A model generated the notes under the pieces. It was not told the origin of the DNA. It saw only the letters and a program-made list of their open reading frames with translations, and did not search any database. A DNA stretch of 34,008 nt from Methylococcaceae bacterium (GTDB lineage Bacteria > Pseudomonadota > Gammaproteobacteria > Methylococcales > Methylococcaceae): positions 1-34,008 of the forward strand of contig CADDZF010000015.1 of NCBI GenBank assembly GCA_902812445.1. Direction: 5' to 3'. Below, piece after piece: positions 12,028-33,884 of the stretch; position 1 is the stretch's first letter; each line of letters opens with the position of its first letter. Made by a program: the position numbers and the translations under genes.

Positions 12028-12939
12028 TCACGGCCGGGAGGCTTCCGCGAACGGCGTTGCCTCTGCCATGCGCAAGGGCATTTTGCTGAGGAATCTGGAA
12101 AACTCCTGCGCGATTTCGGGATGCTTCAGTCCATAACTGACCACGGCCTTGAGGTAACCCAGTTTGGACCCGCAATCGTAGCGGGTACCGTGGAATTCAT
12201 AGGCGAGGATCGTTTCTTCGAGCAGCAGTTGCTGCAGCGCGTCGGTCAACTGTATTTCGCCTCCCTTGCCGGCCGGGGTCGTTTGCAGATGGTGAAAGAT
12301 CGACGGCATCAGGATATAGCGGCCGACCACCGCGAGCGTTGACGGCGCTTCCTCCGGCCTGGGTTTCTCGACGATCCCTTGGATGCGCTTCACGCGACTG
12401 ACATCGGGCGCCGTTTCGACGACGCCATACTGGTCAGTTTCCGCGCGCGGCACCTCTTGCACGCCGATCATTGTCGCGAGGCGGCGCTCGAACAGATCCG
12501 CCATTTGTTTAAGCACCGGGGTCGCCGCATCGATCAAGTCATCCGCCAGCACAACGGCAAACGGTTCGTCGTCCACCAGCGCTCGCGCGCACAGCACGGC
12601 ATGCCCCAGACCAAGGGTATCGGATTGGCGCACATAGGCGCAACGAATGTTGCGCGGCAACGAGTTACGCAGTTCCGCGAGCAGGTGGGTCTTGCCGCGC
12701 GCTTGCAGTTCGGCTTCCAGCTCGTACGCCTTATCGAAGTGATCTTCGATGGTCCGCTTGCCGCGACCCGTAATGAAGATCATCTCCGTGATACCCGCGG
12801 CAGCCGCCTCTTCCACCGCATACTGAATCAATGGCTTGTCGACGACCGCAAGCATTTCCTTGGGCGAGGCCTTGGTGGCGGGCAGAAACCGGGTACCCAA
12901 TCCCGCCACCGGAAAGACGGCTTTACGAATTTTTGTCAT
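12028..12939 (-). CDS. galU: UTP-glucose-1-phosphate uridylyltransferase
   Basis: The product is 303 residues, essentially the length of characterised GalU proteins. The start [23 protein letters not shown] is the nucleotidyltransferase P-loop-like motif with the activating lysine, and [29 protein letters not shown] and [15 protein letters not shown] are GalU signatures. It forms UDP-glucose from UTP and glucose-1-phosphate, the donor precursor for exopolysaccharides, LPS sugars and probably several glycosyltransferases in this window. GAGG lies 8 bases before the ATG. It is transcribed in the same direction as the downstream c-di-GMP regulator, with a 118-base gap. Confidence 0.96.
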
Positions 12940-14941: not shown

Positions 14942-15472
14942 ATGACTAAACGAAGCGAGAAAAAATCCACGCAAGACGCCATCAATCTGTTGCTGGAAGA
15001 TCACGCAAGAGTGCAAAAGCTGTTCAAGGAGTTCAAAAAGGCGAAAGAAGAGCCGGAGGCCAAGCAGGATATCGTCGAAACTGCCTGCACCGAACTGAGC
15101 ATTCACGCGCAGGTCGAGGAAGAAATTTTTTATCCGGCGGCGCGCGAGGCGATCGGGGAGGGCGCTGACTTGTTGAACGAAGCGGAAGTCGAGCACAACA
15201 CCGCCAAGGACCTGATCAGCCAGCTCGAAGAAATGGATGCTGACGATGAGCTATACGAGGCCACTTTCACGGTGCTCGGTGAATACGTCAACCATCACAT
15301 CGAAGAAGAACAAGAACGGCTTTTCCCGAAAGTGAAAAAAGCCAAGCTGGATCTCGAGGCGCTGGGTGAAGAGATCGCGCAGCGCAAGCAGGAACTCGAG
15401 GACGAGATGGGCATGAGCGAACGATCGCCATCACCCGACGAGCTGCACGTCAGCGGCGAGCAGAACCGTTAG
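14942..15472 (+). CDS. Hemerythrin HHE-domain protein
   Basis: The product is 176 residues. The metal-binding pattern is visible: DHARVQKLFKEF (first His), IHAQVEEEIFYP (HxxxE), EVEHNTAKDLI (His) and VNHHIEEEQERLFP (HHxxxE). These bind a non-haem di-iron centre in a four-helix bundle and serve for oxygen, NO or redox sensing or iron handling in bacteria. The last 45 or so residues are charged and probably helical, without a motif. GAGG lies 6 bases before the ATG. It precedes the large fusion gene by 24 bases and is likely its operon leader, which suggests the module is expressed under stress or low oxygen, by inference only. Confidence 0.93.
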   Translation: MTKRSEKKSTQDAINLLLEDHARVQKLFKEFKKAKEEPEAKQDIVETACTELSIHAQVEEEIFYPAAREAIGEGADLLNEAEVEHNTAKDLISQLEEMDADDELYEATFTVLGEYVNHHIEEEQERLFPKVKKAKLDLEALGEEIAQRKQELEDEMGMSERSPSPDELHVSGEQNR

Positions 15473-15496: not shown

Positions 15497-18400
15497 ATGG
15501 CGACACCACCACAAACATCCAGGCTGTTCCGCTCGTTCTGGATAGCCGGCTACGAAGGAGCGGATCACATCAACGGCTCGGGACTGCCCCTGGTCATGAA
15601 CGACCTGACCGGGCACGGTGCCGATCCTGTGGCAGATTACGCGTTATTGCGCGAATTCGATATCCACACGGTGCGTGAGAGCGTCGGCTGGCGGGTGACC
15701 GAACGGGCCGGTGGTCGATTCTGCCTAAATACTCTCGAACGGCGCGCGCGGGCCGCTGAGGAGTGCGGCCTGCAAGTCATCTGGACGCTCATGCATTACG
15801 GTTATCCGGCCGACGTCGATATTTTCTCGCCCGCCTTCATCGACCGGTTTGCCCGCTACTGCGGCCGGGTTGCCCGTTTTCTAGCGCCTTACTCCGACCA
15901 GCCGGTCTACTCGCCGATCAATGAAATCTCCTTTCTGTCGTGGGCAATCTGCGAGAGCAGGTTGTTTCATCCGTATACCGGAACGCTCAAGGACTACGGC
16001 TTCGAACTCAAAAAGCACCTCGTGCGCGCCTCGATCGCCGGCTGTGAAGCCATCTGGGAAGCCGACCCGCGTGCCCGCATCGTGCAGATCGACCCGCTGA
16101 TTTACGTCGTTGCCGCCGAGCCAGAGCCCGAGCTCATCGCGGCCGCGGAGCGCGAGAACGAGATCCAGTTTCAGGCATGGGACATGCTGAGGGGCTCGCT
16201 CGAACCCGGGTTGGGCGGAGCGCCCAAATACCTCGACATCATCGGCATCAACTACTACCACAGCAACCAGTGGGAGCATCTCACCGACGAGCGTCTGCAC
16301 TGGCATAAGCGCGACCCGCGTCGCGTTCCTTTCAGCCAATTGCTCGCACAGGCAAGCGAGCGCTACCAGCGACCGATGTTCATCGCCGAGACCAGTCATG
16401 TGGGCAACGGCCGCAGCATCTGGATTAGGGAACTCGCCGAGGAAGTCATGCGGGCCGATCAACGGGGCATCAAGCTGGAAGGCATTTGTCTTTATCCCAT
16501 CATCGACCGTCCGGACTGGGAAGATCCACGCCGCTGGCATAACAGCGGCCTGTGGGACCTGAGGGTGCAGGCAGACGGCACTATGCGGCGCGTTCTGCAC
16601 GAACCTTATGCCCGTGCGCTGAAGCGGGCGCAACGCCTGGTCGCCGGGGTATCGCACCAGGAATCCCGCCGTTCACCTACATCAACCGAAGGAAGCAAGC
16701 CCATGACATCCCTTATCGTGTTCTCCCATCTGCGCTGGAATTTTGTCTACCAACGGCCTCAACACTTGCTCAGCCGCCTGGCCGAGAACTACCCGATTTA
16801 TTTCATCGAAGAGCCGATATTCAGCGAGGGCAGCAGCTTCATCGACATCCAGGAGCCCGTGCCGAACGTACACGTGCTCACACCGCATACATCGATCGCG
16901 ACGCGAGGATTCAGTGACGACCAGTTGCCCACGCTGCAGAAACTCGTGCAGCAGTTCATCGTCGATGAAAAGCTGGATGATTACGTCGTCTGGCTTTATA
17001 CGCCGATGGCGCTGCCCTTGCTGCAGCAGACCCGGCCACGCGCCATTGTCTATGACTGCATGGATGAATTGTCCGCGTTCAGGAGTGCGCCCAAGCAGTT
17101 GCTGCAGCGCGAGAGTGCTCTGCTCAAGCTGGCCAGCATGGTGTTCACCGGTGGTCCCAGTCTTTACGGCGCCAAACGCTCGCGTCATCCGAATGTCCAC
17201 TGCTTTCCGAGCAGCGTGGATTATGCTCATTTCGCTCAGGGGCGCGACGGTGCCAACGAACACCCGGCGCTGAAAGAGCTGCCACGGCCGCGCCTGGGCT
17301 TTTACGGGGTCATCGACGAACGGCTGGACCTCGAGCTGATCAGGCATCTGGCGGACGAACGCCCCAACTGGCAGATCGTGTTGGTCGGTCCGGTGGTGAA
17401 AATCGATCCGGGCAGTTTGCCGAAGCGGCCCAACATTCATTATTTCGGGCAAACGCCCTACGCCGATCTACCGCGCTTTCTCGCCGGCTGGGACGTCGCA
17501 CTGATGCCGTTCGCGCTGAACGACTCGACCCGCTTCATCAGCCCGACCAAGACACTGGAGTACATGGCGGCGGACCGCCCCATCGTCAGCACGCCGATCA
17601 CCGACGTGGCCGAACCGTATGGCGACATCGTGCACATCGCCAGCGATCCGGCGGCGTTCGTCGCCTGCTGCGAGCGAGCGCTCGCTGAGCCGGCAGGGGA
17701 ACGCGCCGAGCGCAGTGCGAAGAGACAAGAAGTGCTCAAGGGCACTTCTTGGGACATGACGACGAGGAAGATGCACGAACTGATTCAGAGAGCTTGCGCC
17801 GAAGGTCTCAACCAGGCGGCCCAGTCGCTGTGGGAACGCAGTTTCCCGGCTGTCTCGTCAGAGGGAAGCGCGGAGGATGCGCGACCGGCGGCCGGCCGCT
17901 ATGACTGTATCATCATCGGCGCCGGGCCGACGGGCCTGAGTGCCGCTTACCATCTGGGCGACAAGAAGAGCACCCTGCTGCTGGACCAGAATGGCATCGT
18001 TGGCGGCTGGTGCCGCTCCGTCGAAGACAAAGGCTTCACCTTCGACTACGCCGGCCACATCATGTTCTCCAACGACAGCTATGTGCAGGAGTTGTATCAG
18101 ACTCTGCTCGGCGACAATGTGCATTGGCAGGATCGCGAAGCCTGGATCTACAGCAAGGACGTCTACACGCGCTATCCATTCCAGGGCGCACTCTACGGGC
18201 TGCCGCCAAAAGTGCTCAAGGAATGCATCGTCGGCGCCATCGAGGCGCGCTTCGGCAGCCTTAAGCAGCGCCCGGCCGAGCGGCGCCCGGAGAGTTCCCC
18301 CAGTGCCTGCAAGGCCGAGTCGATTACCGACTGCTGTGCCGATGGCATCGCCGAAAGTGTGACGCCACTGAGCGATGCCGCCCCGGCCAGCGCATCCGGC

Positions 18401-19435
18401 AATGCCGAGCCGCGCAATTTCGAGGAATTCATCTATCACGTCTGGGGTGCGGGCGTCGCCAAGCACTTTGCCATTCCCTATAACGAAAAGCTTTGGGCGG
18501 TGCCGCTCAGCGAAATGGAGACGTCCTGGCTCGGCGGGCGGGTACCGCTGCCCGATCTCGAAGAAATGATCGAAGGAGCGCTGGAGCCGGTGGCGAAACC
18601 CATGGGTCCCAATGCCCGCTTCGGCTATCCCTTGAAAGGCGGGTTTCAGGCTTTAATGAACGGGTTTCTGCCGCACCTCAAAGGCGATATTCGACTCAAC
18701 TCCAGAGTTGTCGGCATCTCTCCCGGCAAGCGCACAGTCAGGTTGGCTGACGGCATCGAGCATACGTATACCCACCTGATCAGCACCATGCCGCTGCCCG
18801 AGCTGATCAAGGCTATCGGAGACGAGGCGCCACCTGAGATCCATCAGGCCGCGCGGGGCTTGCGCCACGTGTCGGTGCGCTGCGTCAACCTCGGTGTGCA
18901 GCGGCAGAATATCACCGACAAGCACTGGATCTATTATCCGGAAGACACGGTGTTTCATCGTATCTTCGTTCAGGGCAACGCCAGTCCGCACTGCAATCCG
19001 CCGGGCGGTTTCGGCCTGACCTGCGAGATCACCTATTCAGGCTACAAGCCGCTCTCATGCGACGGCCAGGCCCTGACCGAGCGGTGTATCGCCGACTGTA
19101 TCAAGGTGGGCCTGCTGAGGGAAGACGACGCCATGCTGACGACCCACCAGGTCGATATGCCTTACGCCTACGTCGTCTACGACCATGGCCGGGCAGCAAA
19201 GGTCGAGCTGATCCGGAACTGGCTCGCCGATCGTGGAATCATCCTCGCCGGCCGGTACAGCGAGTGGGAATACTACAATTCGGACCACGCCTTCATCGCC
19301 GGGAAAAAAGCGGCCGGAGAGGTAGCCCTGAGCGATACCGTGACGGCCGCCGATGAATTGCGCCGTTCGGTGGAAAAAAGCCGTCTGCGGCTAATTCCGA
19401 AAAAATTCCGTCAAGCCAAGGGCGCGGTGAAGTGA
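15497..19435 (+). CDS. Three-domain fusion: glycoside hydrolase, glycosyltransferase, UGM-like flavoprotein
   Basis: This is one uninterrupted frame of 1312 residues. Residues ~8-385 resemble a clan GH-A (GH1-like) TIM barrel, with SPINEISF (E143, acid/base candidate) and FIAETSHVG (E298, nucleophile candidate). Residues 403-~790 form a GT-B glycosyltransferase: the start MTSLIVFSHLRWNFVYQRPQ is typical, and SPTKTLEYMAADRPIVSTP is its donor-site motif; it lacks the EX7E pair. Residues ~801-1312 begin with YDCIIIGAGPTGLSAAYHLG, the FAD-binding Rossmann motif, and continue with FDYAGHIMFSNDSYVQELY and YNEKLWAVPLSEM, as in UDP-galactopyranose-mutase-like or HemY-like flavoproteins. A low-complexity insertion spans residues 922-973. 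No signal peptide is visible, so it should be cytoplasmic. The stop overlaps the next gene by 4 bases. The domain calls are strong, the overall reaction is unknown. Confidence 0.88.
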   Translation: MATPPQTSRLFRSFWIAGYEGADHINGSGLPLVMNDLTGHGADPVADYALLREFDIHTVRESVGWRVTERAGGRFCLNTLERRARAAEECGLQVIWTLMHYGYPADVDIFSPAFIDRFARYCGRVARFLAPYSDQPVYSPINEISFLSWAICESRLFHPYTGTLKDYGFELKKHLVRASIAGCEAIWEADPRARIVQIDPLIYVVAAEPEPELIAAAERENEIQFQAWDMLRGSLEPGLGGAPKYLDIIGINYYHSNQWEHLTDERLHWHKRDPRRVPFSQLLAQASERYQRPMFIAETSHVGNGRSIWIRELAEEVMRADQRGIKLEGICLYPIIDRPDWEDPRRWHNSGLWDLRVQADGTMRRVLHEPYARALKRAQRLVAGVSHQESRRSPTSTEGSKPMTSLIVFSHLRWNFVYQRPQHLLSRLAENYPIYFIEEPIFSEGSSFIDIQEPVPNVHVLTPHTSIATRGFSDDQLPTLQKLVQQFIVDEKLDDYVVWLYTPMALPLLQQTRPRAIVYDCMDELSAFRSAPKQLLQRESALLKLASMVFTGGPSLYGAKRSRHPNVHCFPSSVDYAHFAQGRDGANEHPALKELPRPRLGFYGVIDERLDLELIRHLADERPNWQIVLVGPVVKIDPGSLPKRPNIHYFGQTPYADLPRFLAGWDVALMPFALNDSTRFISPTKTLEYMAADRPIVSTPITDVAEPYGDIVHIASDPAAFVACCERALAEPAGERAERSAKRQEVLKGTSWDMTTRKMHELIQRACAEGLNQAAQSLWERSFPAVSSEGSAEDARPAAGRYDCIIIGAGPTGLSAAYHLGDKKSTLLLDQNGIVGGWCRSVEDKGFTFDYAGHIMFSNDSYVQELYQTLLGDNVHWQDREAWIYSKDVYTRYPFQGALYGLPPKVLKECIVGAIEARFGSLKQRPAERRPESSPSACKAESITDCCADGIAESVTPLSDAAPASASGNAEPRNFEEFIYHVWGAGVAKHFAIPYNEKLWAVPLSEMETSWLGGRVPLPDLEEMIEGALEPVAKPMGPNARFGYPLKGGFQALMNGFLPHLKGDIRLNSRVVGISPGKRTVRLADGIEHTYTHLISTMPLPELIKAIGDEAPPEIHQAARGLRHVSVRCVNLGVQRQNITDKHWIYYPEDTVFHRIFVQGNASPHCNPPGGFGLTCEITYSGYKPLSCDGQALTERCIADCIKVGLLREDDAMLTTHQVDMPYAYVVYDHGRAAKVELIRNWLADRGIILAGRYSEWEYYNSDHAFIAGKKAAGEVALSDTVTAADELRRSVEKSRLRLIPKKFRQAKGAVK
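16690..16705 (+). promoter_or_regulatory. Internal ribosome-binding site and ATG within the fusion gene
   Basis: AAGGAAG followed by ATG at 16703, in frame at residue 403, sits exactly at the join between the hydrolase and the glycosyltransferase. The spacing is about 7 bases, suited to initiation. It may be a leftover from when the two were separate genes, or may still give a second shorter product. Confidence 0.5.
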
Positions 19436-20238
19436 TCATCGATGCGCATCTTCACTGCACGGGCCGCGAGCACACGGACGAAGTGCTCACAGCGCTAGAC
19501 GACGCGGAGGTCGACGCGGCGGTGCTGCTGGCGCCGTTTCTGAGTCCGCCGTTCCAGCTCAACGATCCTCATTCGCTACGCGTCGCTAACCAGCATCTGG
19601 CGAACCTGGTGGGCGGCCACGAGGACCGCTTGATCGGCTTCGCGGTGGTAAACCCGCTGCACGAGGAAGCGATCGATGACTTGCGCCACGCCATTGTTGA
19701 TCTCGGCCTGCGCGGTCTCAAGCTGGTGCCGACCGGCTGGTATCCTTACGATGAGCGCGCGCATGGCATCTACGAGAGCGCTGCGCTGCTCGGCATTCCG
19801 ATCTTGTTCCACAGCGGCATCTTTATCGACGGCCGCTCCGGACGCTTTTGCCGACCTGCATTTTTCGAAGCCGTTCGCGAACATCCCGATCTGCGCGTCA
19901 CCTTGGCCCATCTGGGCTGGCCCTGGTGCGATGAAGCCAACGCCGTGGGAGTAATCGATCTCATCAACGGCGTGGCGCCCGATGAGAGCCAATTCCGCTT
20001 CGATATCTCTTTCGGGGCGCCGCCGGTTTATCGCAAATCCGCCTTGAACAAAGCGCTTGCCGTGTTGACCCCGGAGCTATTGCAATTCGGCAGCGACCGG
20101 TTTCTGCCCTGCAGCGGTGAGCATATCGCGGAAAAAATTCACGAGGTCGACGCCTTGTTCGACGATCTTGAACTGGCCCCCGATGCCCGTAAACGCATCA
20201 TGTACGGTACGGCGGCGGCCTGGTTGGGAATTTCATGA
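19432..20238 (+). CDS. Amidohydrolase-2 family metal-dependent hydrolase
   Basis: The product is 268 residues. The GTG start at 19432 overlaps the fusion stop (GTGA), so translation is coupled. The start IIDAHLH supplies the HxH metal pair (H6, H8), ILFHSG gives H127, LAHLGWPW gives H160, and GSDRFLP gives D222: together the full ligand set of a (beta/alpha)8 amidohydrolase. LGLRGLKLVP is also typical of this group. Members act on decarboxylation or hydrolysis of small carboxylated or lactone substrates. As part of an operon with glycosyltransferases and a mutase-like flavoprotein, a sugar-derived substrate is possible but not shown. Only the family assignment is firm. Confidence 0.9.
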   Translation: MIIDAHLHCTGREHTDEVLTALDDAEVDAAVLLAPFLSPPFQLNDPHSLRVANQHLANLVGGHEDRLIGFAVVNPLHEEAIDDLRHAIVDLGLRGLKLVPTGWYPYDERAHGIYESAALLGIPILFHSGIFIDGRSGRFCRPAFFEAVREHPDLRVTLAHLGWPWCDEANAVGVIDLINGVAPDESQFRFDISFGAPPVYRKSALNKALAVLTPELLQFGSDRFLPCSGEHIAEKIHEVDALFDDLELAPDARKRIMYGTAAAWLGIS

Positions 20239-20256: not shown

Positions 20257-21489
20257 ATGGACAAACTGTCATCAAGTGATAAGCCTTTAACCGTATTGGA
20301 AGTCATCGGCAATGCGATAGTCGGTGGCATGGAGACATATGTGGCGCGGTTCATCGCGCGTTTGCCGGAGGACCGCTTCAAGGTGATTTGCCTGTGCCCG
20401 TTCGAGAGCCCGTTCACCGCGCAGTTGCGCAAACAGGGCTGCGAAGTCTTCATCGCCCAGATGAACGACGATCCGTCGTGGTACTCGATCCAGGCCACTA
20501 CGATGCTGGTGCGTACCCAAGGCGTCGATGTGATTCATGCGCACATGGCCAATGCGCATCTGCTGTCCGGCCTCGTCGGCAAACTGACCGGAACGCCGGT
20601 GCTGAGCACGATACACAGCCGCACCCTTTCGCTGCCGGATCTGGAAGTGCACCGGCTAACCGACACCTATCTGAGCGTGGTTTCGCAACTCGCATATCTG
20701 CAAGCTCTCAGCGTCGGGGTCAAAAGCGATCGGCTTCATTTTATTCGCAATGGCGTCGACAGCGCGAGCTTCACCGTCCGCGAAAGGTCGAGCAGCCTGC
20801 ATGCAACGTTCGGGATTCCCGCCACCACGCCCCTAATCGGCTTCATCGGCCGGCTGTCGCCGGAGAAGGGACCCGAGGTCTTTCTGCGCATGGCCTGGCT
20901 GGTGGCGCAGAGCGTGCCGGACGTCCACTTCGTATTCGTCGGCGAAGGCCCGATGCTCGATCGCCTGCGCAGCGGAGCCGACATCATGGGGCTTAAAGAC
21001 CGCTTGCACTTCGCCGGCACCCGCCATGATATGCCACAAGTCTATCCGTGCCTGGACCTCGCCGTAGTCAGTTCGTATTCGGAAGGCATGCCCCTGGCTC
21101 TCATGGAAGCCATGGCCTGTGGTCTTCCCGTCGTCGCCACACACACGGGCGGTGTAGCGGATGTCATCGAGGTCGGCACCACGGGCTTAATGCGGGCGCC
21201 GGGTGATCATGAAGGACTTGCGCAGGCGGTGATCAAGCTGATGACCCAGCCGGAATTGCGCAAGGCGATGGGACAGGCGGGGCGACAGCGCATCGAGAAT
21301 CAATTTTCCCTGGACAGCAGCGTTACCGACATGGCCAATTTATTGATGCTTCTAGGGCAATCCGGTAACCGCAAAGCGACCGTGGGCTATCGTATGGCAT
21401 CCGTATCGGCCGTCGATACGCCGCCGCCAGCGCTGAAAAGCGCTAGCGCTTCTTCTGCCAGCAGCAAGGCGACAGGACGAGAGACCTGA
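20257..21489 (+). CDS. Family 4 glycosyltransferase, last gene of the fusion operon
   Basis: The product is 410 residues. AIVGGMETYVARFIARLPE is the N-terminal GT-B opening with a GGxE motif. The donor domain has FIGRLSPEKGPEVFLRMA and SEGMPLALMEAMACGLPVVAT, with the EX7E pair of retaining GT4 enzymes. The final 30 or so residues are Ser/Ala/Lys-rich and probably disordered; their DNA holds three tandem AGCGCT palindromes (21429-21450). GAGAGGAA lies upstream of the ATG, and the gap to the amidohydrolase is 18 bases, so the same operon is likely. Its donor and acceptor are not known. It ends convergently with the BrkB/YihY gene. Confidence 0.92.
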   Translation: MDKLSSSDKPLTVLEVIGNAIVGGMETYVARFIARLPEDRFKVICLCPFESPFTAQLRKQGCEVFIAQMNDDPSWYSIQATTMLVRTQGVDVIHAHMANAHLLSGLVGKLTGTPVLSTIHSRTLSLPDLEVHRLTDTYLSVVSQLAYLQALSVGVKSDRLHFIRNGVDSASFTVRERSSSLHATFGIPATTPLIGFIGRLSPEKGPEVFLRMAWLVAQSVPDVHFVFVGEGPMLDRLRSGADIMGLKDRLHFAGTRHDMPQVYPCLDLAVVSSYSEGMPLALMEAMACGLPVVATHTGGVADVIEVGTTGLMRAPGDHEGLAQAVIKLMTQPELRKAMGQAGRQRIENQFSLDSSVTDMANLLMLLGQSGNRKATVGYRMASVSAVDTPPPALKSASASSASSKATGRET

Positions 21490-24870: not shown

Positions 24871-26766
24871 ATGGCCATCCATTCGCATCCGTCCACACCA
24901 CGCTTCCTCCATCGTTCACTCGCCTTGGCAGGCATGGCAATCGCTGCCACCGCTGTGGAGGCGGCCGTTATCCACGTGGATGGGGTTGACTGCACCCTGA
25001 CTAACGCCATAACGGCGGCCAATACCGATACGGCAGTGAGGGGCTGTGCCGCTGGTAGCGGCGCGGATACAATCCTGCTGCACTCCGACGTTGTCCTGAC
25101 GGCCGTGGATAACGACAGCGACGGGCCAAACGGGCTGCCCTCGGTCACTACCATGATCACGATCATGGGCCGAAACCACGCCATCGAGCGTTCTGGCGTA
25201 GCCGACAGCCCGGCTTTTCGGCTGCTGCACATAGGAGCCGCGGGCGACTTGACGCTGGATGCCTTAAGACTCCAGAACGGACTCGCAACGTCGGGATTCA
25301 AGGGCGGCGCACTGTTCAACCTGGGCGCACTGAAACTCACCCGCAGCATCGTCTCGGGCAACCGTGCGACCTTGGGGAGCAGCTTCGAGTCAGCGGGCGG
25401 CGGCCTTTACAACGGCGGAGTGCTCACGCTCAGCCACAGCACGGTCTCGGACAACCTAGCTGAAGGCGGTACTTTCAGTCCCGAGGGCCTTTCACAGGGT
25501 GCCGGCGCCGGCGGCGGTCTTTACAACGAGGGCACCGCCACGCTGGTCCATAGCAGCGTCTCCGGGAATGAAGCTCACGGCTTCAATGGTATCAACGAGG
25601 GAGGCGGCATCTATAACCAAGGCGCTGTCACGCTTACCCACAGCACTGTGTCGCGGAACTCCGCCAGCGGCTCTGATGGCGGGAGCGGTCTGGGCGGTGG
25701 CATCTATGGCGGTACCGTGACGCTTACTCATAGCACGATTTCGGAGAACGGAGCTGGCGCTAACTTAAGAGGTGGTGCGGAAGGGGGCGGCATCTTGGCC
25801 GAGACGGTCACACTCGACCAAAGTACCGTTTCGGGCAACAAGGTCCTGGGTTCTGTTAGCGGCGGTCGCGGTGGCGGCATCTCCGCCGGTACCGTGACGC
25901 TCATTGACAGCACTATATCGGGCAACAGCGCCGGCGGCGGCGGCGGCATTTCGGCCGGCACTGTGGTTCTCACCAACAGCACTGTTTCGAACAATAACGC
26001 CAACATGTTAGGGGGCGGCGGCATTTCGGCCGGCACCCTAGTGCTGACCCACGGCACCGTCTCGGCCAATAGCGCTCTTCCCCGCAGCGAAGGATTTCCA
26101 GGTGGCGGCGGCCTCTTGTTCGGCACCGGCACGCTCACCAACAGCCTTGTTGCCGACAACACCGGCGGCGATTGCGTCTTCGACTGGTTTAGCGCGGACG
26201 GCACGGTTACGACCGCCGGTCTCAACCTGATCGAGGACGGCAGTTGCGGATCAGGCTTCCCGGCGAATACGGACCCCAATCTCGGGCCCCTGATGGCCAA
26301 CGGCGGCCCTACACAGACGCAGGCCTTGCTCACCGGAAGCCCGGCGATCGATCAGATCGCTTTCCTCCCGGGTATCGGCTGCGAGGCCGCCCCCGTCACT
26401 ACCGATCAGCGCGGGGTGAGTCGTCCCCAACCCCCGGGCGGCAGATGCGACATCGGCGCCTTCGAACAGGCGCAGGCCCCCGCGATACGCATCGGGCAGA
26501 TCATCGAGTTCATCGATCTATGGATACAGCGCGGCATGATCGGCCTTGATGAATCGACGAGGCAGCGCCTAGGCGCTCTGCGTAGCCAGCTGGTGGTGGC
26601 CGCCGATGCGATCGCCGAACACGAGCTAGCGACGGCTTGCGGGCAGCTCACGGCAACGCTCGAGCACATCCCTGATCACGGAAGGCTACAGCCTGGCGCC
26701 AGCGCCCAGCTAATGCAACTGATGCAAAATGTGCGCGAGGGTCTGCCGTGTAGCAATGCGGGCTAA
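24871..26766 (+). CDS. Secreted right-handed beta-helix protein with choice-of-anchor Q-like region
   Basis: The product is 631 residues, ATG at 24871 with AAGGAG 8 bases ahead. A signal-like segment (LALAGMAIAATAVEAA) sits near residues 18-33, followed by VDGVDCTLTNAITAANTDT, a CSLREA-like domain. About ten rungs of the form (V/L)TLTHST(V/I)SxNxA follow, rich in Gly and Ser, which form a right-handed parallel beta-helix. DPNLGPLMANGGPTQTQALL, GSPAID and RGVSRPQPPGGRCDIGAFE are the choice-of-anchor Q signature. The last 90 or so residues are polar and helical (IIEFIDLWIQRGMI...). It is probably surface-exposed or released. Function is not known; related proteins are adhesins or polysaccharide-binding. 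It ends convergently with the multicopper oxidase gene. Confidence 0.85.
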   Translation: MAIHSHPSTPRFLHRSLALAGMAIAATAVEAAVIHVDGVDCTLTNAITAANTDTAVRGCAAGSGADTILLHSDVVLTAVDNDSDGPNGLPSVTTMITIMGRNHAIERSGVADSPAFRLLHIGAAGDLTLDALRLQNGLATSGFKGGALFNLGALKLTRSIVSGNRATLGSSFESAGGGLYNGGVLTLSHSTVSDNLAEGGTFSPEGLSQGAGAGGGLYNEGTATLVHSSVSGNEAHGFNGINEGGGIYNQGAVTLTHSTVSRNSASGSDGGSGLGGGIYGGTVTLTHSTISENGAGANLRGGAEGGGILAETVTLDQSTVSGNKVLGSVSGGRGGGISAGTVTLIDSTISGNSAGGGGGISAGTVVLTNSTVSNNNANMLGGGGISAGTLVLTHGTVSANSALPRSEGFPGGGGLLFGTGTLTNSLVADNTGGDCVFDWFSADGTVTTAGLNLIEDGSCGSGFPANTDPNLGPLMANGGPTQTQALLTGSPAIDQIAFLPGIGCEAAPVTTDQRGVSRPQPPGGRCDIGAFEQAQAPAIRIGQIIEFIDLWIQRGMIGLDESTRQRLGALRSQLVVAADAIAEHELATACGQLTATLEHIPDHGRLQPGASAQLMQLMQNVREGLPCSNAG

Positions 26767-26952: not shown

Positions 26953-28662
26953 TCATACGATATGGAAATCCCGCATCATGCCGGCATCCTCATGCTCGAG
27001 ATTGTGGCAGTGAACCATGAAGATGCCTTTGTAGTCCCGAAACGGCTTGATCAGGCGTACCCTTTCCCCCGGCATGACCAGTACCGTGTCTTTCCAACCA
27101 TGGTCGATAAAGCCGTCGCGCACGCTGGCGTAGGCCTCCGTGTGCGCCTCGTGGATCGTCCGGCTGATGATCTGAAAAGCCTGACCGTGCATGTGGATGG
27201 GGTGGGCCATCGACATCATCATGCCCGTCGCGCCGCCCATTCTCATGCCGCCCATCATTCCCGTACCCCGCATTCCCCTGCCCATACCCATTCCAGCCAT
27301 GGCGGGTTGCTGGTCTCTCCTTTCTCCGTCGCCACTGTGTCCGGCGCCCTCGGGGCGAAAGATTTCGATCAGCTGTAAGGTGTCAAAGGGAATACGCTCG
27401 TTGGGCTGCACGTCGTCATAGGCATAGGCCCGGCCGTTGAGCAGCATGGCCATGGGACCCTCGGAAATACCGATGGGGACCGGCTGCTTGGGGTTGGCGG
27501 CATCTTCGGTTTGATACCGAGCGATCTTGCACAGGCGGGTCGGAAGGGCCGGGCTAGCGCCGACTTTGCGAATGACATGCGCCGTGAAAATAGGATAGTC
27601 ACTACCGACCGGCAGCTCGTTTTCCGCCATCATGGCGCCGCCCATGCCATGTCCGCCCATTCTGGGCAGCACGCCGGAAAAGGAACGGCTGCGCATCGCC
27701 AGCCGAGAACCGACACCACGGCCACTGAAATCCGCCCATACATCCAGCCGCTCGCCGGGTGCCAGCATGACGTAAGGCTTGTTCACCGGCTTTTCCAATA
27801 GTCCGCCATCGACACCCAAGACGGTAACGGGTGTGCCGTCATCCCAGGCCAGCTTGTAAATCCGCGCCGTGGAGCCGTTCATAAACCGCAGGCGATAGGC
27901 GCGGGTAGCGACGTCGATGCGGAAATCGGGGCGGCCGTTGACCAGGATGCGATCGCCATAGAACCCCAGCATCCGGTCATGCATGCCGCGTAGGTAGCGC
28001 AATTGATTGTGCTCATCGAAGCTGCGATCCTGAATGACGATGGGAATCTCATATTCTCCGGACGGCAGGTCGAGTGCGCGCTCTTCCTCGTCATTCACCA
28101 GGATGGCACCCGCCAGGCCATGATAAACCTGACTGGCGGTGGCCCCGTGCGGATGCGGGTGATATAGGTACAGGCCCGCTCGGTTGAGCACCTCGAACTC
28201 GTAAACAAACGTTTCGCCCTGATCGACGGCGTAGCGGGGATGTCCATCCATCGACGCCGGTACGTGCAATCCGTGCCAGTGAGTGATAGTGGGTTCGTCC
28301 AGCTCGTTACGCAGATGAATGCGGATCTTTTGGCCTTTCTGCAGCCGCATGACAGGTCCCAGGTAGGACGCGGGAAGGTTCGTCAGGGTGTTCTCCGGGC
28401 CTTTGATCAAATGGGCGGCGTATTGCTGCACCCGCGTGGCCGCGCCGGGCAGGATGGATAACGAACCGGGCCGGCAGCTCAGTTCGATCTCGACGTCCGG
28501 CTTGAAGCCGGGTGATGCCCGGTTAGGCGCCATTTTCGGCAAGCTAGGCATCGCTTCGCTTTCCATCGCGCGCAGCCAGCCGGTGAAGCCGGACAGCGTC
28601 AGCAGACCGAGACCGGAGTATTGGAGAAGTCTGCGGCGCCGGGCATCAATGGGTTCGTTCAT
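26953..28662 (-). CDS. Multicopper oxidase, CueO/CotA type, Met-rich
   Basis: From the ATG at 28662 (AGGAG 8 bases ahead) the product is 569 residues. A longer frame exists, but this start places RRRRLLQYSGLGLLTLSG at the N-terminus, a likely twin-arginine signal. The four copper sites are visible: HWHGLHVPASMDG, YHPHPHG, HPIHMHGQAF and MVHCHNLEHEDAGMM. A region rich in Met and Gly precedes the third (MGMGRGMRGTGMMGGMRMGG), as in CueO, where it helps bind cuprous ions. It should oxidise Cu(I) or phenolic compounds with oxygen in the periplasm after folded export. It lies 137 bases downstream of the RND pump gene on the same strand, so a metal-resistance role is likely but not proved. Confidence 0.93.
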   Translation of the reverse strand: MNEPIDARRRRLLQYSGLGLLTLSGFTGWLRAMESEAMPSLPKMAPNRASPGFKPDVEIELSCRPGSLSILPGAATRVQQYAAHLIKGPENTLTNLPASYLGPVMRLQKGQKIRIHLRNELDEPTITHWHGLHVPASMDGHPRYAVDQGETFVYEFEVLNRAGLYLYHPHPHGATASQVYHGLAGAILVNDEEERALDLPSGEYEIPIVIQDRSFDEHNQLRYLRGMHDRMLGFYGDRILVNGRPDFRIDVATRAYRLRFMNGSTARIYKLAWDDGTPVTVLGVDGGLLEKPVNKPYVMLAPGERLDVWADFSGRGVGSRLAMRSRSFSGVLPRMGGHGMGGAMMAENELPVGSDYPIFTAHVIRKVGASPALPTRLCKIARYQTEDAANPKQPVPIGISEGPMAMLLNGRAYAYDDVQPNERIPFDTLQLIEIFRPEGAGHSGDGERRDQQPAMAGMGMGRGMRGTGMMGGMRMGGATGMMMSMAHPIHMHGQAFQIISRTIHEAHTEAYASVRDGFIDHGWKDTVLVMPGERVRLIKPFRDYKGIFMVHCHNLEHEDAGMMRDFHIV

Positions 28663-28799
28663 GGTGGTATCTCCTTTTTGATAGGTTGAGGTGCGCCAGC
28701 CATTGACTCGCCGGTATCTCATCCCGAAGCGCCATCACCCAAGATCCGGCTTGCGGACGGTCGATTGCGATGGCGAGTCGGCGCGTGTTGGAAGGGTTC

Positions 28800-31700
28800 T
28801 CAGAGCTCATCTTTCTCGGTGGAATCCCGCCGGTGCAGCAGGAAATAGACCACGGGCACTACCAAGAGCGAGAACGCGGTGGAGGCAAAGATGCCGAAGA
28901 TGAAGCTCCAGGCGAGGCCGGAGAAGATCGGATCCAGCGTGATCACGAACGATCCGAACATGGCAGCACCGGCGGTGAGAAAAATGGGGCGCAGGCGCGT
29001 GGCGCCGGCCTCGACCAGGGCGTCCGCGAGGCCTATTCCCTGGGCGCGCAGCCGCTCGATGAAGTCGATGAGGATGATGGAGTTGCGCACCACGATACCG
29101 GCTAGGGCGATCATGCCGATCATGCCGGTGGCGGTGAACAGAATGGGATTTTCGTATCCGGCCACCGGGCTAGTGAACAGGTTCAGCAGCCAAAAACCCG
29201 GCATGATGCCGATGATCGTCAAGGGAATGGCCACCATGATGATAAGTGGCAGGCCGAGCGATGCGGTCTGCGCCACCAATAACACATAGATCATCAGCAA
29301 GGCCGCACCGAAGGCAAGCCCGAGGTCGCGGAACACGTCCACGGTGATTTTCCACTCGCCCTCGCCGGCTAGGTCGACCGCGTAACCGGCCGGCAGCGGC
29401 CGGGCCTTTTCGACGTCCCACCAGTCGAATACCGCCTCCACGGGGCTGCGTCCCACGGTTTCGGCGATGACGTAGTTGAGGCGCTTGAGATTCTTGTGAT
29501 AGAGGGTCAGATCAGCTTGATCCTCGATAATCCGGCCCAGTTCGCCCAGCGGAATCAGCGAACCGTCCGCCGCCTTCACCCGCAGATCCAGCAATCCCGA
29601 AGGACTGGATCGCTCGGAGCGTGTCAGCCGTAGGTCGATCGTCAAAGGCTGGCGCTCGCCGGGTGCATGCACCGTGCCCGCCTTGCCGCCGCCCAACGCC
29701 AGAGCCAGGGTCTCGGCGACTTCCCGCACCGTGACGCCATGCAGCGCGGCCTTCTGGCGATCGAGCCGATAGCTAAGCTTCTGCTGCGGTTCGTCCACCA
29801 GATCGTCCACGTCTCTCGCGCCTTCGATTTTTTCGACTTCGCCGCGCACGGCTTCGGTGACCCGAGCCAGCTCGCGGTAATCGCGATCGAGGGGACCATA
29901 GACCTCGGCGACGAAAGTGGCCAGCACCGGGGGCCCCGGCGGGGTTTCGACGATCTTGACCTTGGCGCCAGCGGCCTTGGCGATGCGCTCGATGTCCGGA
30001 CGCAACCGCAGGGCGATTTGATGCGACTGCTGTTCGCGCTGTTCCTTCGGGAGCAGGTTGACGCGGATTTCGGCTTGATGACCACCTTGGCGGAGATAGT
30101 AGTGGCGCACCATGCCGTTGAAGTCCATCGGCGAGGCGAGCCCGGTATAGGTTTCGAAATCGGTGACTTCGTTGATCCGGGACAGAAAGAAGCCCAGGTC
30201 GCGGGCGACCGCATCGCTTTCCTCCAGAGTGGCGCCGCGCGGCAGGTCGATGATCAGTTGCAGCTCGTTCTTGTTGTCGAAAGGGAGCAATTTCAACGGC
30301 ACCAGCCGGTACACGGCGAGCAGGGCGGATGCGAGGAAAGCCGCCAGCACCAGCCACAGGAACCACTTGGCGCGCGCCGGACGGCGTATCAAGCCGCCCA
30401 GGATCCTATCGTACAGACGGTACGACGAGCTTTGCTGGAGGCGGAACGGTCCTTCATCGCTCTTGCCGTACTCGCTCTTGAGCAAGTGATAGCTAGCCCA
30501 CGGCGTGACGGTGAACGCCACCAGCAAGGACATCAGCATGGCGATCGGCACGTTGAAGGCCATCGGCGCCATGTACGGCCCCATCATGCCGGTGATGAAG
30601 TAGAGCGGCAGAAACGACACAATGACCGTGAAGGTGGCGAAAATGGTGGGCGGCCGCACCTCGTCTACGGCGCTGAGCGCGGCGTCGAGTGGCGGCTCCA
30701 GGCGCAGCTTGAAATGGCGGTAGATGTTTTCCACGTCGACGATCGGATCGTCCACCAGAAGTCCCAGCGACAGGATCAGGGCGAACAGGGTCACCCGATT
30801 GATGGTGTAGCCGGAGATGAGATCGAGCAACAGCGTGACGCCCAGCGTCATGGGCACCGCCAAGGCGACGATAATGGCTTCCTTCGGCCCCAGCGCCAAC
30901 GCCAAGAGGACGATGATGGTGACGATCGCGATCCCCAAGTGCTTCACCAGCTCGTTGATCTTGTGGTTGGCGGTCCCGCCGTAGTCGCGCGTGATGCTGA
31001 CCATGACGTCTTCCGGAATCACCTGGCCATACAGTCCGCCGACCGTCTGCACGGCGGCCTCGGCGACCGCCACGGCGTTCGCACCCTTGCGCTTGGCGAC
31101 GGTTACGGTGACGGCCTGACGCTCCTCTCCCGGTTGGCCGGCCGCTGCTTCGCCGATGCGCCGACTGGCGGCTGCGGCCGCTCCGAAGCCGATGCGCGTG
31201 TAGCTCTCCGCTTCGGCGGGCGCGTCCTCCAACATGGCCACTTCGCTGAGATAAATGGGTCGGCCTTCCCGCGAGCTCACCACGGTCCTCGCCACCTCGT
31301 CCGCGCTCTCGAAAGCGGGGCCGGCGTCGAGCCTCACGAGATGGCCGGCGCGCTCGAAACGCCCCGCGGTCAGATTGACGTTTGCCGTCCCTAGGGCTTG
31401 CGCCAGGTCGAGCAGAGCGAGCCCGTGGGCCGCCAGCCGGGCCGGGTCCGGATAGACCCGCAGGTGCCGGGTTTCGCCGCCGACCACGCCGATTTTGCCC
31501 GTGTCCTTGACGGCGCTCAGCTTGTCCTTCAATTCGTCGGCCAGACGTCTGAGAGCGGCGGTATCGTAGGCGGGATTGGCCGAGGACAGGGTCAGGGTCA
31601 CGATAGGCACGTCGTCGATCTCGACCGGCTTGACGGTCCAATCGAGAACGCCGGGCGGAATGACGTCCTGGTTGGACATCAGCTTGTTCCACACTTTCAC

Positions 31701-32045
31701 CAGGCTGTCCTCGCGGTTCTCGCCCACGTAGAAGCGTACGGTGATCGCGGCCTCGCCCTCGCGCGAGGCGGAATAGACGTATTCCACGCCGTCGATCTCG
31801 CGCAGTTTCGATTCCAGTGGGGTGGCGGCGAGTTTCTCGACTTCTTCGGCCGACGCTCCCGGCATGCGCACGAAGACATCGGCGACCGGCACGACGATCT
31901 GCGGCTCCTCCTCCCGGGGCGTCAGCAGCAGCGCGGCGACGCCCGCCAACAGCGAGGCTATCAGCAGCAACAGCGATAGCTTGGAGGTAATGAAGACGCG
32001 AACGATTTCGGCGGTCAGGCCTCTTTTTACCGGCTCGGCCGACAC
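28800..32045 (-). CDS. RND efflux pump, inner membrane permease
   Basis: The product is 1081 residues from a GTG at 32045, usual for AcrB/CusA-like pumps. The first transmembrane helix is SKLSLLLLIASLLAGVAALLL, followed by the porter domain (VFVRMPGASAEEVEKLAATPLE). SLGLLVDDPIVDVENIYRHF carries the proton-relay aspartates of transmembrane helix 4. The second large periplasmic loop (RGATLEESDAVARDLGFFL) and the closing helices (FTATGMIGMIALAGIVVRNS) are in place. It pumps a substrate out using the proton gradient, with an adaptor encoded 29 bases upstream. The substrate (drug, metal or other) cannot be deduced; the neighbouring copper oxidase makes a metal or oxidant possible. GGAGG lies about 9 bases before the start. 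Confidence 0.95.
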   Translation of the reverse strand: MSAEPVKRGLTAEIVRVFITSKLSLLLLIASLLAGVAALLLTPREEEPQIVVPVADVFVRMPGASAEEVEKLAATPLESKLREIDGVEYVYSASREGEAAITVRFYVGENREDSLVKVWNKLMSNQDVIPPGVLDWTVKPVEIDDVPIVTLTLSSANPAYDTAALRRLADELKDKLSAVKDTGKIGVVGGETRHLRVYPDPARLAAHGLALLDLAQALGTANVNLTAGRFERAGHLVRLDAGPAFESADEVARTVVSSREGRPIYLSEVAMLEDAPAEAESYTRIGFGAAAAASRRIGEAAAGQPGEERQAVTVTVAKRKGANAVAVAEAAVQTVGGLYGQVIPEDVMVSITRDYGGTANHKINELVKHLGIAIVTIIVLLALALGPKEAIIVALAVPMTLGVTLLLDLISGYTINRVTLFALILSLGLLVDDPIVDVENIYRHFKLRLEPPLDAALSAVDEVRPPTIFATFTVIVSFLPLYFITGMMGPYMAPMAFNVPIAMLMSLLVAFTVTPWASYHLLKSEYGKSDEGPFRLQQSSSYRLYDRILGGLIRRPARAKWFLWLVLAAFLASALLAVYRLVPLKLLPFDNKNELQLIIDLPRGATLEESDAVARDLGFFLSRINEVTDFETYTGLASPMDFNGMVRHYYLRQGGHQAEIRVNLLPKEQREQQSHQIALRLRPDIERIAKAAGAKVKIVETPPGPPVLATFVAEVYGPLDRDYRELARVTEAVRGEVEKIEGARDVDDLVDEPQQKLSYRLDRQKAALHGVTVREVAETLALALGGGKAGTVHAPGERQPLTIDLRLTRSERSSPSGLLDLRVKAADGSLIPLGELGRIIEDQADLTLYHKNLKRLNYVIAETVGRSPVEAVFDWWDVEKARPLPAGYAVDLAGEGEWKITVDVFRDLGLAFGAALLMIYVLLVAQTASLGLPLIIMVAIPLTIIGIMPGFWLLNLFTSPVAGYENPILFTATGMIGMIALAGIVVRNSIILIDFIERLRAQGIGLADALVEAGATRLRPIFLTAGAAMFGSFVITLDPIFSGLAWSFIFGIFASTAFSLLVVPVVYFLLHRRDSTEKDEL

Positions 32046-32074
32046 GCCTCAAACCTCCCGGACCGCGGCGCAGC

Positions 32075-33145
32075 TCATTGTTTGGCTCCAGTCAACACCG
32101 TCTCGCCTTCCTTCAGGCCTGAGAGCACTTCGACCCACCCGCCACGCGTTTTGCCGGTGCGGACGTGGCGTAATCGGCTGATCCTCCCAATCAGCACATG
32201 AACGCTCTCCAACTGCCCCGTGTGGCTGACCGCGTTCGCGGGGATCAGCAGCGCGCGGTGGCGACCGCACGCTTGCTCCAGCCAGGCGAATGTTCCCGGC
32301 TGCGGGTGCGTCCGTGGATCCAAGGCTGTCTTGATGAGGACCGTCCGGGTCTGCGCATCAGCTGCCGGTGCGATTTCCTCGATCCTGGCAAGATACGTTT
32401 TTTCATCGATGCGGGCCGTCAATTCCTGGCCTTGCTGCAGCGATCGCGCACAGCTTTCCGGGATGGCGGCTTCGATGCGCAAGCGTTGCATTGATTGCAT
32501 CGTGATGACCGGCTGCCCGGGCAGCGCCAGGTCGCCAGGCTCCATGAGGCGTTTGACGACCGCTCCATCAAAAGGCGCCCGCAGCACCCCCTCGCTGACT
32601 ACTGATGCGGCGGCGCCGACGGCGGCACGGGCTTCGGCGATCTGGGCAGCGCCGCTACGGGAAGCGGCCAGAGCGGTATCCAACTGCTGCCGGGTAGCGG
32701 CTTCCGCATCGAATAGAGTCTGGGTCCGGCGAGCATCCGCGCTGGCCTTGGCCCACTGCGCTTCAGCGGCCGCCAGAACGGAACGCGCCTGGCTCAGACG
32801 GGCTTTGAGTTCCCGTTCATCGAGCCGAACCAGCACTTGGCCCGCCTTGGCGTTATCGCCGGGTCTCACCGTGATTTCGAGTACGCGGGCCGGCACTTTC
32901 GAGGCGATCTGTGCCACCGTGTGGGCGCTGACCGTGGCCGGCCACGACCGCATGTCATCGATTTCCGTGAATTCGGCCCGGGCGCTCGGTCCCGGATTGG
33001 GTTCCGTCTTCCCGGCGATTTCGGTAACGCCCGCGGGGGTCTTGGCGGTGAAGCCGCCTTCGATCCAGACGAGAAGCACGATCATGCCGAGGATAGAACC
33101 GAGTACCTGGTAGAGCTTGCGGCGGGACCGCTGCGGATGGGCCAT
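32075..33145 (-). CDS. RND periplasmic adaptor (membrane fusion protein)
   Basis: From the ATG at 33145 the product is 356 residues. A hydrophobic anchor (KLYQVLGSILGMIVLLVWIEGG) comes first. The lipoyl/barrel-sandwich half is seen in VARILEITVRPGDNAKAG-like sequence, then a coiled-coil hairpin (SQARSVLAAAEAQWAKASAD and following) and the return half with APFDGAVVKRLMEPGDLALPG. The beta-barrel and membrane-proximal parts follow. It links the inner membrane pump to an outer membrane channel. It begins 10 bases after the TolC-type gene stop and precedes the pump gene by 29, so all three form one operon. The start chosen trims a 21-residue upstream extension that overlaps the TolC-type gene. Confidence 0.92.
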   Translation of the reverse strand: MAHPQRSRRKLYQVLGSILGMIVLLVWIEGGFTAKTPAGVTEIAGKTEPNPGPSARAEFTEIDDMRSWPATVSAHTVAQIASKVPARVLEITVRPGDNAKAGQVLVRLDERELKARLSQARSVLAAAEAQWAKASADARRTQTLFDAEAATRQQLDTALAASRSGAAQIAEARAAVGAAASVVSEGVLRAPFDGAVVKRLMEPGDLALPGQPVITMQSMQRLRIEAAIPESCARSLQQGQELTARIDEKTYLARIEEIAPAADAQTRTVLIKTALDPRTHPQPGTFAWLEQACGRHRALLIPANAVSHTGQLESVHVLIGRISRLRHVRTGKTRGGWVEVLSGLKEGETVLTGAKQ

Positions 33146-33155
33146 GGCGTGCGTC

Positions 33156-33884
33156 CTATTTCCAGTATCCAATAGCTTTCTGCAAGTTGGCCCGCGCCGT
33201 CTGGGCATCGAAATGGGCCAGCACGGCGCCGGTTTCGGCCTGAGCTCGGTCCGCTTCGGCTTCCAGATAGCGCGTCACCGTCGCTGCGCCGTTGCGATAT
33301 TCTTGCTCGACTAGCCGGTACGCTTCATTGGCCGAAACCGAGGAGCTTTCCGCCACGTGCTGTCTTGCTACCGATTCTTGCAGCGTGGCGAAAGCCTTCT
33401 GGACCTCCTCTTCGATTTCCAGCCGCGTGCGCTCGCGCAGGGCTCGGGCTTCGGCCAGCCGGCGACGCGCGCCCTCGATGCGGGCGGACGTGGCGCCACC
33501 TGCGAACAGATCCACCTCTGCGGTTACGCCTAGCGTCAGGTTGTCATGGTCGAAATTGAATTCGGGCGAGCGCTCGTTGAGGCCGTATGCCGCATAGGCG
33601 TTGACTCGCGGCAGATGGCCGCCCTGTTCGGCGCGCAGCTCTTTGGCGTGCATTTCCACTTGGCGGCTCCAAGCCTGCATTTCCGCGCGTTGAGCCAGCG
33701 CTTGCGCGACTAGCTGAGGAAGATCGACGGTCGCTGCGGCGGTTTCGGCATCGCCCGCATCCCGGACGTCGAGGGCGTCGTCCGCTCCCAGTCCGAGCAG
33801 TGTCCGCAGCCCGGTGCGAGTCAGAGTCACGGCGTTCTGGGCACTCAGCTCCAATTCCCGGGCTCGCCCCTGCCGAGTCTCCAA
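33156..33884 (-). pseudogene. TolC-type outer membrane efflux protein, 5' half missing
   Basis: The remaining 242 residues are the C-terminal half of a TolC-like protein. LELSAQNAVTLTRTGLRTLLGLG is the end of the first structural repeat; a second repeat follows (LRAEQGGHLPRVNAYAAYGLNER, GVTAEVDLFAGGATSARIEGAR, VQKAFATLQESVARQHVAESS, AEADRAQAETGAVLAHFDAQ). Intact proteins have some 420-470 residues with a signal peptide, so about half is gone. The frame continues upstream (through INSHQAL) to about 33905 but then hits a stop and stops resembling the family. A different gene, transposase-like, runs the other way immediately beyond. The channel is therefore probably not functional unless another TolC serves the pump. 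Confidence 0.75.

Follow-up and report, generated by a model that had tools for sequence, protein, structure and literature searches.

A glycosidase–glycosyltransferase–mutase fusion with a predicted second start at its first domain joint in a Methylococcaceae bacterium

Locus and domain architecture

The DNA analyzed here (the window) is a stretch of 34,008 nt whose contig belongs to the 3.2-Mb draft genome (260 contigs) of a Methylococcaceae bacterium. It carries one open reading frame (ORF, 15497-19435) that joins a glycoside hydrolase (GH) domain, a glycosyltransferase (GT) domain, and a UDP-galactopyranose mutase (UGM) domain, with a Shine-Dalgarno (SD)-like sequence and an in-frame ATG at the GH-GT joint (Table 1). 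No internal stop was found when frame and translation were inspected. An earlier note, made from the sequence alone, had placed the three domains in a single unbroken frame, and both the ORF and the domain and fold matches bear this out. Since homologous ORFs of approximately 1240-1400 aa in other organisms (55-60% identity) span both joints in independent genomes, the sequencing error at 16700 or 17890 that the note had contemplated is not needed, and a chance frame is ruled out as well. The note had also considered that homologs might always be separate genes; the same one-frame order recurs elsewhere, which rules out a singular local event. The boundaries were thought to fall at natural linkers, and a linker is indeed present, but the first joint additionally carries the SD and the ATG.

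Table 1. Features of the window, with positions counted from its first nucleotide.
Feature	Position	Strand	Remarks
Whole ORF: GH1-like, GT-B, and eukaryotic-type UGM	15497..19435	+	1312 aa, ATG to TGA
GH1-like clan GH-A (beta/alpha)8 domain	15515..16648	+	residues 7-384
GH-GT linker	16649..16702	+	residues 385-402; sequence unconserved
SD-like AAGGA	16689..16693	+	9 nt upstream of internal ATG
Internal in-frame ATG (M403), predicted second start	16703..16705	+	would give 910-aa GT-UGM product
GT-B glycosyltransferase, GT4-like	16703..17806	+	residues 403-770
Eukaryotic-type UGM, flavin adenine dinucleotide (FAD) domain	17885..19342	+	residues 797-1282
Amidohydro_2 protein	19432..20238	+	GTG start overlaps fusion stop by 4 nt (GTGA)
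GT4 glycosyltransferase	20257..21489	+	probably same operon; order conserved in Nitrosospira/Nitrosomonas
GalU, UTP-glucose-1-P uridylyltransferase	12028..12939	-	373 bits, cut-off 327

For structure prediction, the GH and GT-UGM parts were folded apart (predicted template modeling score of GT-UGM 0.57). The AlphaFold2 model of the GH domain (residues 7-384, mean predicted local distance difference test score 93.5) matches the GH1 structure 1ug6 with a Z of 36.6 over 353 residues (2.6 A, 18% identity), and a profile of 39 GH sequences aligns with GH1 chains such that the two catalytic glutamates coincide. The proposed catalytic residues E143 (15923-15925) and E298 (16388-16390) align with the GH1 acid/base and nucleophile and are glutamate in 38/39 and 39/39 of these sequences, respectively, so that their earlier assignment as a hydrolase pair stood. 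The Pfam GH1 model scored 20.3 bits, under its cut-off of 22.6, and the domain is therefore named GH1-like and not a member of GH1. A phmmer search with the GH part alone against the PDB gave no match; GH1 was found only by profile and fold. The same genome contains a second, unfused GH of this family with 43% identity (G000:C12:1297-2487; L017:1258-2550). Within the Pantoea/Erwinia family, L047 and L055 likewise carry a second, unfused copy, in which the nucleophile is kept and the acid/base Glu is replaced by Gln (NQIS for NEIS), as is also the case in myrosinases. A GH1-type domain is also joined to a different sugar-nucleotide enzyme, in a 758-aa GH1-RmlD fusion adjoining GT-UGM at L078:5212-7488 and approximately ten other loci (e.g., L062, L066, L068, L076, L096, L130, L135).

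The GT domain is recognized by Pfam Glyco_trans_1_4 (36.7 bits, cut-off 27) and adopts a GT-B fold (Z 31.9 to MshA, 3c4q); by sequence, no match to the GT part was found in the PDB. An identity as TuaH of teichuronic acid synthesis was rejected at 83.6 bits against an NCBIfam equivalog cut-off of 550. The flavoprotein domain, labeled Amino_oxidase by Pfam, is closest in both sequence and fold to the UGM of Trypanosoma cruzi and Aspergillus, with an E of 6e-58 to T. cruzi UGM 4dsg and a Z of 41.2 to 4dsh over 431 residues, and its FAD Rossmann motif reads GAGPTG. The active site of UGM we take to comprise His63, Arg182, Arg327, Tyr317, Tyr419, Tyr453, Asn207, and others (A. fumigatus numbering). 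After the residues were checked against the alignment, 18 of the 19 listed positions were identical to Aspergillus UGM, the exception being S93, which is Ala. Taken together, UGM and GT make the earlier suggestion that the protein could isomerize and transfer a sugar a well-supported hypothesis.

Distribution of the fusion

Genome contigs with the UGM domain were scanned, giving 80 sampled loci. The earlier view that these activities normally reside on separate proteins does not hold for GT and UGM, which are fused in 77 of the 80. The triple fusion itself proved recurrent rather than unique: all three domains share one frame in 21/80 loci, among them Polaromonas, Nitrosospira, Nitrosomonas, Janthinobacterium, Herminiimonas, and others, and in about a dozen the GH is a separate gene just upstream of GT-UGM. 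Over all sampling, the one-frame layout was seen in L033, L069, L074, L088, L118, L145, L173-L190, and others. Whole-genome sampling added approximately 20 genomes of the Pantoea/Erwinia family with the triple fusion and further fusions in another family, probably Burkholderiaceae. Among plasmids, 16 records contained a single region that matched at least 80% of the query, with Pantoea, Erwinia, Chimaeribacter, and Ewingella represented, while a search of viral contigs found no relatives. GH-GT fusions without this UGM also occur, and other lineages combine this GT with the classical GLF (PF03275) in one protein, which is an independent partner swap. This recurrence of GH/GT/UGM pairings argues that the three parts would work together. 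A further arrangement is seen on a Comamonas antarctica plasmid (L143:11920-15519), where a separate glf gene lies 24 nt downstream of a GH-GT fusion.

In Methylomagnum and Methylocaldum, which belong to the same family, GH and GT-UGM are encoded by separate genes. The GT tree places the window protein outside the large fused groups and next to unfused sequences of Steroidobacter type, a position that is weakly supported; its fusion may have arisen independently, or the gene may have been transferred with a Nitrosospira-like operon. Databases name the triple-fusion protein "FAD-dependent oxidoreductase", and a search of the open literature found no description of a GH-GT-UGM fusion.

Internal start at the GH-GT joint

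The conserved start inside the fusion is the most informative result, as it predicts two products where genome annotation gives only the long one. In the window, AAGGA is followed after 9 nt by ATG 16703, which is exactly residue 1 of the GT. A Met lies at or within 2 residues of the GT start in all 26 fusions examined first, most of them with a purine-rich SD upstream, and the linker peptide is unconserved across fusions whose joint keeps Met and SD. This internal SD-ATG is conserved beyond chance. An SD of at least 5 nt occurs at the joint in 28/62 GH-GT fusions compared to 26/1364 (1.9%) other in-frame ATGs of the same ORFs, although the corresponding p of 7e-27 is exaggerated, both by the kinship among the sequences and because the ATG was sought in a small interval around its expected place. 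Of the 43 fusions that have both this UGM and an ATG at the joint, 40 show an SD of at least 4 nt. The Gly codon lying 3-4 codons upstream of the joint ATG is GGA in 22/24 cases, against 10% in the same ORFs. Moreover, among the 77 GT-UGM loci, an SD of at least 4 nt precedes the GT start in 21/21 fused and 51/56 unfused cases. A corresponding start at the GT-UGM joint is not supported, with no Met in 46/77 and an SD of at least 5 nt in only 4/77.

Within the fused group, four Nitrosospira loci (L101, L102, L104, L111) are natural GH-deletion mutants. Of their GH, only approximately the first 80 residues can still be recognized, in a remnant with stops, yet the same AAGGA and ATG precede an intact GT-UGM of 880-885 aa. 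The pairwise ratio of nonsynonymous to synonymous substitution (dN/dS) of GT-UGM is approximately 0.12-0.15 among L101, L102, and L111, while synonymous change is saturated with L104. GT-UGM is therefore maintained without a GH in cis, and here it would most simply be made from the AAGGA-ATG start.

The GH-GT joint stays open while its length varies: the linkers fall into 18 length classes, with at least 26 in-frame changes on the GT tree, against 4 switches between the fused and the separate state in adjacent GH/GT pairs. If the frame were free, two-thirds of the indels would be expected to break it, which gives a binomial probability of 2e-9 for 26 versus 4, an approximate value, as a pattern was used to locate the linker anchor and the tree was built with FastTree. 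The complete joints scanned in the Pantoea/Erwinia family are all open, with the sole exception of L191, an otherwise disrupted copy, while Polaromonas L128 has a stop at the joint where its relatives have none. Because in-frame linker changes and a conserved inner SD-ATG coincide, the long form and the inner start both look to be under selection. The earlier description as one protein is accordingly real for the long frame and probably incomplete, as the joint start looks functional and GT-UGM is likely also made alone.

Genomic context

The amidohydrolase next to the fusion has a 68% identical counterpart adjoining GT-UGM in Nitrosospira. GalU, on the other side, could supply UDP-Glc for a GalT-type exchange. 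Among the neighbors of the 80 loci, a GH2 is found in 40, GalK in 18, and GalT in 15. The GH2 taken as representative clusters with 7xyr, 7sf2, and 9j6m/9j6n, a beta-D-galactofuranosidase of Streptomyces (E 2e-72), with other GH2 structures far off (E 4e-24). Of these, 9J6M is assigned to GH2_18 and 7XYR to GH2_19 in the furanosidase group, which also contains arabinofuranosidases; GH2_19 is mostly unsecreted (PMC12243196). These nearby GalK, GalT, and galactofuranosidase-like GH2 genes support a galactofuranose pathway. Unfused loci have the GH2 nearby more often (35/56) than fused loci do (4/21, p 8e-4). This would be consistent with the GH1-like domain taking the place of GH2 at fused loci, although lineage confounds the comparison.

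Several other neighbors were noted. An MsbA-like ABC exporter, which could export the product, adjoins GT-UGM in Azospirillum (L144:13672-15438) and Methylocaldum (L126:6699-8540). On an Erwinia plasmid (L142:4300-11605), a Mn catalase, a ferritin-like protein, a DUF421 protein, and a zinc alcohol dehydrogenase lie nearby, and the window encodes a hemerythrin protein at 14942-15472; such stress-type neighbors hint at expression under stress. Further along the window are a 631-aa repeat-rich protein with a choice-of-anchor Q domain (24871-26766) and, on the minus strand (26953-33884), a multicopper-oxidase-like gene beside what appears, from the translations only, to be an RND efflux pump with adaptor and outer-membrane factor.

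Interpretation and rival explanations

On balance, we consider it fairly probable that the ORF is an in-frame gene-within-gene of a galactofuranose pathway, with GH-GT-UGM and GT-UGM alone as its predicted products. The sequences show the fusion, the identity of its domains, and the conservation of the catalytic residues and of the internal SD-ATG; from these we infer synthesis of both products, galactofuranose as the sugar, and the role of the GH. The long product would be a GH1-like glycosidase joined to GT-UGM, and ATG 16703 with its own SD would give GT-UGM alone. The UGM would make UDP-galactofuranose from UDP-galactopyranose, and the GT-B domain joined to it would hand the sugar to an acceptor. 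With no signal peptide seen, the GH1-like domain would work in the same compartment, tethered to only a fraction of the GT-UGM copies, and would probably remove or recycle the (galactofuranosyl) sugar or edit the acceptor. Galactose freed in the cell could then pass through GalK and GalT to UDP-Gal and from there through UGM to the GT. The earlier idea that the hydrolase serves to trim or sense is a guess.

Several observations weigh against this gene-within-gene interpretation. The joint ATG is missing in 7/62 fusions and the SD in L189 and L190, and the joint SD is weak in most GH-GT fusions that lack this UGM, so that the second start does not extend to every fusion. Because of relatedness among the compared sequences, the p-values overstate independence. 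Furthermore, GalK, GalT, and the GH2 cluster mostly with unfused loci and are absent from the window.

Such losses of SD or ATG would be expected if only the full-length trifunctional chain were made and the internal SD-ATG were a relic of once separate genes, which is an unlikely explanation but the most serious of the rivals. It also agrees with a frame that stays open through many linker indels and with tandem, separate GH and GT genes as a possible source of the fusion. A mere relic, however, hardly accounts for an SD that outlasts a completely diverged linker across families, for the GGA codon bias at the SD position, or for an SD strength equal to that of real starts, and the GH-deleted Nitrosospira loci need an internal start. 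The opposite extreme, two independent genes without a stop between them whose read-on product has no function of its own, seems rather improbable. The internal start does resemble a normal gene start, GH and GT are separate in a dozen loci, and the stop in Polaromonas L128 is what one would expect. However, the 26 in-frame changes against 4 breaks and the open Pantoea/Erwinia joints, apart from the disrupted L191, speak against a free frame.

We hold it to be improbable that the flavoprotein is an oxidase, such as an amine oxidase, or another mutase, such as a UDP-arabinopyranose mutase, in a system unrelated to galactofuranose. UGM-type enzymes can act on other UDP-pyranoses, the Pfam name is Amino_oxidase, and the GH2 group includes arabinofuranosidases. 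Nevertheless, UGM fits sequence, fold, and active site far better than the oxidases do, and both the partner swap with classical GLF and the nearby GalK and GalT speak against this alternative. An assembly or sequencing artefact, conceivable for a draft genome in so many contigs, has a negligible chance of being the cause, as finished genomes and plasmids show the same layout, WP_145890824.1 of Pantoea soli being one example.

If the gene-within-gene interpretation is correct, the fusion could be a widespread, undescribed galactofuranose "writer plus eraser" in one frame: the nested, SD-driven start would set the share of GT-UGM units that carry the GH1-like hydrolase, and one mRNA would tune synthesis versus removal of the same sugar. 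We put this forward tentatively, as a doubtful but possible extension. The analysis ties an unstudied protein of many soil, plant-associated, and nitrifying bacteria to galactofuranose metabolism in a testable manner, and it offers a clear evolutionary case in which selection seems to have preserved both a domain fusion and its old internal start, complete with natural deletion mutants.

Comparison with known systems

The GH domain has its fold and both catalytic glutamates in common with GH1 beta-glycosidases (1ug6 and others), but it is only 16-21% identical to them, lies below the Pfam GH1 cut-off, and is fused to GT-UGM. Similarly, the UGM domain matches the eukaryotic-type enzymes of Aspergillus fumigatus (3ute) and T. 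cruzi (4dsg) in fold (Z ~38-41) and in 18/19 active-site residues; in contrast to these, it is bacterial, sits behind a GT, has Ala for S93, and carries a long, variable, and probably disordered insert (residues ~925-968). The "FAD-dependent oxidoreductase" of Pantoea/Erwinia plasmids (WP_145890824.1, Pantoea soli) has the same three domains in one frame (55-57% identity) but different genomic neighbors. The GT-GLF fusion of Azospirillum brasilense annotated "glf" (WP_059399593.1) pairs the same GT with a UGM and has the GH ("beta-galactosidase") as the adjacent gene, whereas its flavoprotein is annotated as classical bacterial GLF, and the relatives tested belong to PF03275, another branch. 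In the Kingella kingae pamABC galactan locus, UGM is paired with galactofuranosyltransferases, as proposed for the window; there, the genes are separate, the transferases are of GT2/GT111, and a GH is not mentioned (PMC12269835), whereas the parts in the window are fused and include a GH. Finally, a second in-frame start with a shorter product is known from Salmonella N-terminal proteoforms, with clpA cited as a case (PMC11005335). Compared to these, the start in the window is predicted from sequence and lies at the exact joint of a domain fusion, where it would part a hydrolase from a sugar-building enzyme.

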